DNA of 37,969 nt. Origin: Asticcacaulis sp. GTDB taxonomy: Bacteria; Pseudomonadota; Alphaproteobacteria; Caulobacterales; Caulobacteraceae. The position numbers and the translations under genes were made by a program. The notes beneath the pieces are model-generated. The model was not told the DNA's origin, ran no database searches, and saw only the letters and a program-made list of their open reading frames with translations. Positions 22,836-23,971 of the stretch are shown here, one piece after another. Each line of letters begins with the position of its first letter. The stretch's first letter is position 1. The stretch covers positions 1 through 37,969 of the forward strand of contig NZ_JAIXSV010000101.1 of the NCBI RefSeq assembly GCF_027484505.1, given 5' to 3'.

Positions 22836-22855
22836 ACGAGGATAGCGTAACGTCT

Positions 22856-22930
22856 CTTACACCTCCCCAGCTTGCTGGGGAGGGGGACCACACGAGCCCG
22901 CATAGCGGGCAAGATGTGGTGGTGGGGTAT
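22856..22930. repeat. Left structured inverted repeat flanking DUF559 gene
   Basis: This copy contains CCTCCCCAGC-tt-GCTGGGGAGG, then ACCACA (22887-22892) pairing TGTGGT (22915-22920), enclosing the hairpin GCCCGC-ata-GCGGGC (22896-22910). It is an inverted, diverged copy of 23316-23386. Its inner end GGGGTATCTTT is shared with the repeat at 27275-27395. Confidence 0.85.
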
Positions 22931-22982
22931 CTTTGGGGGCAACATGACCGACATTCGCCGCAAAACCGCACTGGCGCGATAG

Positions 22983-23315
22983 ATGCGCAAAGTGCTGACC
23001 ACGCCGGAATGGTTGCTGTGGGAACGCTTGAAGCACCGCAGCGATGGCCTGATCTTCAAGCGCCAGTTTGCGATAGGGCCGTACATCCTTGATTTTTATT
23101 GTTTCAAGGCACGTCTGGCTGTTGAAGTGGACGGCACGTTGCACAGTCTGAATGAACGGGTGGAAAAAGATGCTGCGCGCGATGCATGGTTACGGTCGCA
23201 AGGGCTTGAGGTTTGCCGCCTGGCTGCCGCCGATGTGTACCGGGATGCTGATGGCGTTGCTGATAGGGTGAGGTTGCTGGCTCTGGAAAGAGCGGCGCGT
23301 TTTTCAAAAAGATAA
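22983..23315 (+). CDS. DUF559 endonuclease-like protein (5' end broken by TAG)
   Basis: This DUF559 protein is 110 residues as written; the family is related to Vsr and other restriction-endonuclease-like folds. The core is well kept: TTPEWLLWERLKHRSDGLIFKRQFAIGPYILDFYCFKARLAVEVDG. Asp in ILDFYC and Glu in AVEVDG are the usual nuclease residues, and LRSQGLEVCRLAAADV follows. Upstream in the same frame ATG 22944 would give MTDIRRKTALAR, a fitting family N-terminus, but a TAG at 22980-22982 immediately precedes the ATG at 22983. The gene is thus either a recent nonsense mutant, reinitiated at 22983, or a sequencing difference. It is enclosed by inverted repeats that touch both ends. Confidence 0.8.
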   Translation: MRKVLTTPEWLLWERLKHRSDGLIFKRQFAIGPYILDFYCFKARLAVEVDGTLHSLNERVEKDAARDAWLRSQGLEVCRLAAADVYRDADGVADRVRLLALERAARFSKR

Positions 23316-23386
23316 GCCCCCCACCACCGCATCTCACCGCCTTTGGCGGCTCGTGCGGTCCCCCCAACACGTTGGGGAGGTATAAG
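23316..23386. repeat. Right structured inverted repeat flanking DUF559 gene
   Basis: This is the reverse complement of the left copy with substitutions. ACCGCA (23326-23331) pairs TGCGGT (23354-23359), enclosing CCGCC-ttt-GGCGG (23337-23349); the outer hairpin is CCCCAAC-ac-GTTGGGG. Where the left copy has A-T pairs this one has G-C pairs, so pairing is kept. It begins at the base after the DUF559 stop. Confidence 0.85.
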
Positions 23387-23422
23387 ATATTATTTCAGTA
23401 TAGTGGGGCATGGAAGACGCTT

Positions 23423-23971
23423 ATGACCAAACGATACATCTCCGATATTCTGTATCGCCGTCAGCGTCGAACAAAGACGATGATGCGAAACATGAAGGTG
23501 TGGTCGGAAACGCTTGCCGATGAATGGCCGGAGGCAACACCGCGTGGACGGGGATTTCATAACTGGAAAACGCCTGTCTGGAGCGGGCTGATCAATCCGC
23601 CTCGATCCTCGCTGCATACCCAGCGCCGTTATATAGAGCTTATCCTGCGCGCGGCCGCAAAGATGCAATCCAGCAAACCTGAACACCTCCAACACGCACG
23701 GGTAACGGCGATAATTTCTTATCCAGACCTGTTTCGCAGCAGCGTAGATGTGTTTTTCGATCAGGACTATTGGGCGGCTTTCGCGATCCGTTCTGATGCG
23801 AATGATCTATGGACGCCCCTACCGACCTCGCGCAGTCTGATGAAGTCCTACGGCTTGAAAGTACCCGCAGGCTTCAGGGAGCAAGGCTACAGCACCTACT
23901 GGCGCGACGATGACTTTGATCCGCCATATGAAAACCGGCAGCAGGTCTGGATTTACAGCGAAGTGATGTAA
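23423..23971 (+). CDS. DUF3916-like hypothetical protein
   Basis: This soluble protein of about 182 residues starts at MTKRYIS (GGAAG 6 bases upstream); the longer open frame from 23372 would run through the flanking repeat. The pattern NWKTPVWSGLINPPRSS, QRRYIELILRAAAKM, ARVTAIISYPDLFRSSVDVFFDQDYW and LKVPAGFREQGYSTYWRDDDF resembles DUF3916, whose function is unknown. GC content is visibly lower than in the neighbouring lipB and groEL genes, suggesting acquisition from elsewhere. It ends just before a terminator shared with the convergent groESL operon. Confidence 0.65.
   Translation: MTKRYISDILYRRQRRTKTMMRNMKVWSETLADEWPEATPRGRGFHNWKTPVWSGLINPPRSSLHTQRRYIELILRAAAKMQSSKPEHLQHARVTAIISYPDLFRSSVDVFFDQDYWAAFAIRSDANDLWTPLPTSRSLMKSYGLKVPAGFREQGYSTYWRDDDFDPPYENRQQVWIYSEVM

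Follow-up and report, generated by a model that had tools for sequence, protein, structure and literature searches.

A DUF559 gene that stands between two inverted, hairpin-forming repeats raises the question of whether gene and repeats form a single mobile unit and, if so, which enzyme moves it. We studied such a locus in the genome of an Asticcacaulis sp. (the source genome), within a stretch of 37,969 nucleotides that was analyzed as a whole and is referred to as the window.

Architecture of the window cassette

The unit spans 533 bp: a DUF559 gene with an arm of about 80 bases on each side, the two arms being inverted relative to each other. Its features, in window positions and with the means by which they were located, are as follows.

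22855 to 22934, forward strand: left arm, with outer end, outer hairpin, inner hairpin and G-rich inner end (local alignment and repeat search)
22862 to 22883, forward strand: left outer hairpin, 9 bp with the loop CTTG (folding)
22887 to 22920, forward strand: left inner hairpin, lower stem ACCACA/TGTGGT, upper stem GCCCGC/GCGGGC (folding)
22944 to 23315, forward strand: DUF559 gene (PF04480, E = 1.5e-23), with a TAG at 22980 to 22982 and an open frame at 22983 to 23315 (110 amino acids)
23308 to 23387, reverse strand: right arm, an inverted copy of the left arm, with the stop codon of the gene in its inner end (alignment)
23326 to 23359, reverse strand: right inner hairpin, lower stem ACCGCA/TGCGGT, upper stem CCGCC/GGCGG (folding)
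23360 to 23380, reverse strand: right outer hairpin, shortened compared with the left one (folding)

An inverted-repeat search of the window paired positions 22882 to 22927 with 23319 to 23364 (80% complementarity) and positions 22855 to 22880 with 23362 to 23387 (85% complementarity). Folded as single-stranded DNA, each arm formed two hairpins, and the stem pairs that the initial annotation had named by inspection agreed with this folding. For the left arm, the folding z-scores of the two strands were -4.6 and -5.2, and none of 200 shuffles of either strand folded equally well; for the right arm they were -2.4 and -3.2, and 4 and 0 of 200 shuffles did so. The right repeat had been described as beginning after the stop codon; instead, the right arm starts inside the last codons of the gene, and its inner end includes the TAA at 23313 to 23315. 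Searching Rfam at gathering thresholds gave no match anywhere in the window, and the GTAG tag was absent from the two window arms when both strands were read. A DUF3916 gene occupies positions 23423 to 23968, between the cassette and groEL.

The TAG at 22980 to 22982 breaks the frame that starts at the ATG at 22944, so that only the frame from the ATG at 22983 is open. Related genes at four other loci (L101, L086, L099 and L117) read through the corresponding place. Judging from this stop, which falls at codon 13, and from the shortened right outer hairpin, the window copy is probably decaying.

The cassette encodes a predicted nuclease

The window protein matched the PF04480 profile with 83.2 bits, compared with a curated cutoff of 20.6. 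We built a structure model of its 110 residues (mean pLDDT, 93) and searched with it using Foldseek. The top match was the catalytic domain of I-Bth0305I (3r3p, E = 1.8e-5; TMt of 0.78 for 3r3p_A), followed by 3hrl, an endonuclease-like protein of Neisseria (TMt of 0.87), and then by PvuRts1I-type enzymes; E. coli Vsr stood lower in the list (E = 0.009 and 0.016; TMq of 0.61 for 1cw0). A sequence-profile search returned 3hrl (4e-24), PvuRts1I (1.5e-5) and 3r3p (0.002). According to the model, the window protein has the Vsr/EDxHD nuclease fold, its nearest neighbor is the homing endonuclease I-Bth0305I, and it is a predicted nuclease. The pattern D-F-Y-C...E-x-D-G was present in 81 of the 94 short DUF559 genes of the genus. 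PADLOC gave a weak partial match alone (DpdF, E = 6.6e-5).

Inverted arms flank short DUF559 genes

Four PF04480 matches were found in the source genome: the window gene, a tandem pair on contig C52 and a gene on contig C261 that has an internal stop. By eye, all four are adjoined by inverted repeats of the same plan. For a quantitative measure we aligned the upstream flank locally with the reverse-complemented downstream flank and took the best match as the flank score, with a threshold of 40; two of the four loci reached it (65 and 46), and the others scored 34.

Among 25 Asticcacaulis genomes, 23 contained PF04480, with 113 matches altogether. We analyzed 108 of these loci and left out five short fragments. 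A flank score of at least 40 was obtained for 62 of the 108 loci, some of which are the same site in related genomes and hence partly dependent, compared with 1 of 92 displaced windows. When loci were divided by open-frame length, the threshold was reached by 61 of 94 short DUF559 genes, leaving 33 below it, and by 1 of 14 long ones. The single long positive, L143, lies inside an array of three cassettes, in a unit of 532 bp whose frame is merely open further upstream. The thirteen other long genes (L065 to L071, L074, L079, L080, L100, L118 and L164) are without arms and have common flanks; they are possibly of the VsrA kind.

Control genes gave much lower counts. In G020, where genes of at least 90 amino acids were taken by a simple script from 20 evenly spaced stretches, 0 of 322 had matching inverted flanks. 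The control from the source genome comprised 20 stretches plus the window, several of them chosen for holding repeats; here 5 of 341 genes had such flanks, or 3 of 338 once three DUF559 genes were removed. Outer-hairpin matches were fewer in G020 than in the source-genome sample (16 and 51). Cross-pairing the flanks of different DUF559 loci yielded matches in 39 of 540 pairings between genomes and 35 of 522 within a genome. For short DUF559 genes, the expectation in the initial annotation that such repeats would be more frequent than around other genes was thus confirmed. The three source-genome genes outside the DUF559 family that lie between inverted flanks (scores of 45 to 66; L305, 1764 to 2493 and 5440 to 5890; L302, 12274 to 13732) are perhaps carried, or there by chance.

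A scan of named genomes extended the association beyond the genus. Of its best 80 loci, 63 lay outside Asticcacaulis, mostly in Caulobacterales and Sphingomonadales, and 36 of these 63 scored at least 40, compared with 0 of 60 displaced windows and 44 of 496 cross-pairings. In a sample of the phylum, 86 of 249 genomes contained PF04480; among the 30 loci listed, each the best of its genome and taken without a control set, 9 scored at least 40 (six outside the class), several of them with a CTCTCCC-type repeat. In plasmids, distant relatives were present in 38 records, all at less than 60% identity, so that no strain-level movement was seen among plasmids.

Pairing is kept while arm sequence varies

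Units of the family are mostly about 470 to 600 bp long, with the DUF559 nuclease gene enclosed by an arm on one side and its inverted counterpart on the other. An arm comprises an outer hairpin whose base is conserved (in most, CTCC../..GGAG), an inner hairpin that varies and an inner end rich in G. Comparing the two window arms, the initial annotation had concluded that base changes keep the pairing, and this was borne out across copies. In 65 distinct copies of the window arm family, the fifth pair of the inner hairpin was C-G in 51, T-A in 13 and broken in 1, and the fourth pair was G-C in 20, G-T in 20, A-T in 13 and non-standard in 12. The upper stem of the inner hairpin varies in sequence among copies with its pairing kept: a run of at least 4 pairs was present in 26 of 45 distinct copies, compared with 3.9 when partners were shuffled. 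Likewise, the inner part of the outer hairpin had a run of at least 3 pairs in 60 of 84 copies, compared with 10.4 with shuffled partners.

Protein similarity and arm similarity were correlated (Spearman coefficient, 0.26; 50 cassettes, 1,204 pairs), and the maximum of 2,000 permutations was 0.18. The analysis had excluded from the start eight cassettes whose arm alignments were composite, and 21 same-site pairs were then removed. No correlation between protein and arm similarity was seen within genomes (48 pairs; 0.10, P = 0.48).

Units have inserted, spread and inverted as wholes

We identified 60 pairs of cassettes with well-defined arms and homology over the gene. In 38 of them the homology also extended beyond an arm (same site, array or neighboring repeat), and these were set aside; in the 22 pairs kept, no homology reached more than 40 bases past an arm. 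All four homology ends lay no more than 15 bases from the arm ends in 13 of these 22 paralogous pairs at different sites, and in the other 9 the homology did not end at the arm ends. The 13 pairs include L131 and L140, both in G009, which show 76% over 499 bp with ends within one base, as well as L089 and L101, both in G016, of which L101 is an intact relative of the window cassette. Equal flanks around a reversed cassette were found at two sites, L109 versus L113 and L082 versus L114 and L162.

The joined flanks of 24 cassettes were searched across the genus. We examined the sequence of relatives at L090, L160, L122, L089, L140, L162, L142, L106, L150, L165 and L103, as well as at the L120, L085 and window sites; for the other ten of the 24, no empty counterpart was read. 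Repeat-free empty sites were found for five cassettes: L090 (three relatives), L160 (one), L122 (two), L089 (three) and L140 (one). Two candidates were not accepted. At L120, G014 has unrelated DNA and G018 a decayed copy; at L085, a longer, diverged duplication is present in the flanks, and the right flank of the relatives is not comparable.

At the L089 insertion point the sequence was uninterrupted in all three relatives, and no base was clearly duplicated. L160 is bordered by a 17-bp duplication with one mismatch, TAGCGTATCGCGGT(G/A)AT on both sides, which is single in G002, a genome that has both flanks. L106 has a 24-base flanking duplication, also with one mismatch; a 621-bp stretch of G001 contains the 24-mer once, and its right side is unlike the occupied flank. 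The flanking duplication at these three loci was 17 bp, 24 bp and none (L160, L106 and L089, respectively). A flanking-duplication score of at least 10 was reached by L160 and L106 only, that is, by 2 of 58 cassettes compared with 0 of 580 cross-pairings, and in the rest of the 58 there was little excess of duplications beside the arms at lower scores. A wider search gave 17 of 169 with a score of at least 13 where 0.5 were expected, several of these lying inside repeats or tandem copies.

For other family members, both occupied and empty loci, which the initial annotation had proposed to look for, thus exist. No empty site was found for the window copy itself, and five relatives that lack a cassette behind fliN have different DNA at that place. 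A related cassette in G004 has the same right flank as the window copy and a different left flank. Together, these sequence comparisons indicate that arm-gene-arm units of the family have inserted, spread and inverted as wholes. Near-identical copies at distant sites were not seen among the cassettes, suggesting that the movement is slow or old.

Solitary outer hairpins and gene-less arms

Solitary outer hairpins occur in relatives at three sites: L162 in G005 and G020; L142 in G008, where about 590 bp of unrelated DNA follow before the right flank; and L106 in G001, where other DNA follows. At two of these sites, L162 and L142, the outer end is present on either side in the relative. Repeats without the gene were found in G005, G008 and G010 at the L150, L165 and L103 sites. 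A deletion running from one outer hairpin to the other could account for these solitary hairpins no less well than could the insertion of cassettes into them.

Arms without a gene are also dispersed in the genome. The source genome contains 250 outer-hairpin matches, and the left arm of the window alone gave 48 BLAST matches in it, itself included (E up to 1), compared with 4 DUF559 matches. G006 and G024 have no PF04480, yet they hold 72 and 105 outer-hairpin matches, compared with 7 and 4 for the reversed pattern. These repeats argue against strict dependence on the nuclease, and DUF559 presence was discarded as a predictor of repeats, as it fails in 2 of 25 genomes. G011 has 4 PF04480 matches and 14 outer-hairpin matches, and its arms have another outer hairpin. 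A generic arm pattern detected 5 arms in 400 kb of G020 and 18 in the source-genome sample, numbers too small for an analysis of gene-less pairs.

What moves the cassette

In the most likely reading, the cassette is a REP-like element, and a nuclease takes the place of the RAYT transposase as the product of its autonomous form. As to the agent, we lean towards a family of mobile elements spread by its DUF559 nuclease, which would act on the arms of its own family and leave the joining to host repair. We infer this role for the nuclease because its gene is the one found between the arms throughout, because it has the catalytic fold of a homing endonuclease and because the flanking duplications vary. 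Indirect support comes from the correlation of nuclease and arm similarity, which does not extend to the within-genome pairs. The nuclease would recognize the arms or the outer hairpin of its own family, probably when these are folded out, and would cut or nick there; host repair would then fill the break with the unit by copying or joining. The non-autonomous form would be represented by the gene-less arms, which would stand to the cassettes as REPs do to RAYTs. Such a cut-and-repair model would account for insertions with or without a flanking duplication, for solitary outer hairpins where a relative has the whole cassette, and for tandem cassettes together with dispersed gene-less arms.

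A special form of this explanation is a homing-type drive, in which the nuclease cuts solitary outer-hairpin palindromes and repair copies the cassette in. The solitary hairpins at three sites would suit it, as would the outer end on both sides at L162 and L142 and the closest fold, that of a homing endonuclease catalytic domain. However, five cassettes stand at sites that are repeat-free in relatives, and at L142 and L106 what follows the solitary hairpin is not the DNA of the occupied flank. We regard this special form as somewhat unlikely.

We give less weight still to the explanation that the DUF559 gene is a passenger whose arms are moved in trans by another enzyme of the cell, a transposase of the IS200/RAYT type or of another kind. 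The persistence of repeats in two genomes without PF04480 and the many arm matches away from DUF559 genes (48 to the left arm of the window, with 4 DUF559 genes in the same genome) would be expected of a passenger, and a nuclease without joining activity would need help; PD-(D/E)XK nucleases are not known to join DNA by themselves. A passenger, on the other hand, would hardly be the same gene family between such arms in several orders, with a similarity that tracks that of the arms, when merely 3 of 338 other genes of the source genome lie between such flanks.

It is quite improbable that the DUF559 protein is a cellular, Vsr-like repair nuclease and that the repeats are terminators or processing hairpins that insulate the gene by chance. 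The available part of a report on Caulobacter VsrA, a DUF559 protein, links it to DNA damage in cells without a cytosine methylase (PMC12907096), and the long DUF559 genes of the genus share conserved flanks without arms. A repair gene of this kind is difficult to reconcile, however, with many short genes at differing sites across genomes and with empty sites, inversions and a duplication. Finally, outright coincidence of two repeats and a gene in a repeat-rich genome is a negligible prospect despite the 250 outer-hairpin matches and the occasional match of cross-paired flanks (39 of 540 and 35 of 522), as 0 of 322 and 3 of 338 other genes had such flanks, compared with 61 of 94 short DUF559 loci.

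If the nuclease does spread its own cassette, this may be a tiny mobile element driven by a kind of enzyme not known for such a role. Many bacterial genomes are full of REP-like palindromes, for which a nuclease whose gene moves flanked by similar hairpins is a candidate enzyme. The cassettes offer a testable substrate and natural empty sites, and a role in them, if true, would give short DUF559 proteins a function. Only tentatively, and with more doubt than belief, do we extend this to a transposase-free class of bacterial mobile elements, in which a Vsr-fold nuclease would cut solitary hairpins and repair would copy the cassette in; such a nuclease would then be the enzyme so far missing for much of the REP-like load in Alphaproteobacteria and, perhaps, in other Proteobacteria.

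Comparison with known systems

MITEs are small inverted-repeat units, many of them gene-less; the cassette differs in carrying its own nuclease gene. Nearest in architecture are the RAYT-REP elements. In a REPtron, as outlined in the accessible part of one account (PMC8266576), inverted hairpin repeats likewise surround a single gene, and many gene-less copies are dispersed. The analogy drawn in the initial annotation, that of REPs and RAYTs with an unrelated enzyme in place of the RAYT, is therefore a good one in architecture. The enzyme here has the predicted Vsr/EDxHD nuclease fold and is no HUH tyrosine transposase, the arms have two hairpins, and the window copy is without the GTAG tag. 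Since TnpA-REP belongs to the HUH superfamily (the same part of PMC8266576) and the cassette enzyme does not, the cassette is no member of the RAYT-REP elements.

CGTC-tagged palindromes predominate in Alphaproteobacteria, apparently without a dedicated transposase, according to the portion available of Di Nocera et al. 2013 (PMC3733652). The window cassette comes from the same bacterial class, and some arms of the family carry GACG, which is CGTC on the other strand, beside the inner hairpin. By a strict pattern the tag was present in 15 of 116 arms, and the AT stem start described for CGTC REPs in that portion (PMC3733652) was found in 2 of 22 arms tagged by a looser pattern. The window arms are untagged, and we did not retain an identification of the window family with the CGTC REPs.

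The EDxHD homing endonucleases, represented by I-Bth0305I (PMC3943268, available in part), resemble the cassette enzyme in the fold of the catalytic domain, by both sequence profile and Foldseek. Compared with I-Bth0305I as described there, the cassette has no intron, its 110-residue protein has no added DNA-binding region, and hairpin arms surround its gene. Caulobacter VsrA shares the DUF559 domain and the Vsr-like fold; its proposed role is mismatch repair, and the available part of the report does not name flanking repeats for it (PMC12907096). Our literature search, with sparse coverage of subscription journals, found no work that links DUF559 to flanking repeats.

Two other repeats came to light near family members. 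The left flank of L095 (query 2401 to 2510) holds a different dispersed repeat of about 110 bp, which recurs more than 10 times in G019. At L002 (1180 to 1352), palindromic stretches with CTAGTGG/CCACTAG-like ends around AAATGTCAAA are perhaps another small element beside tandem cassettes.
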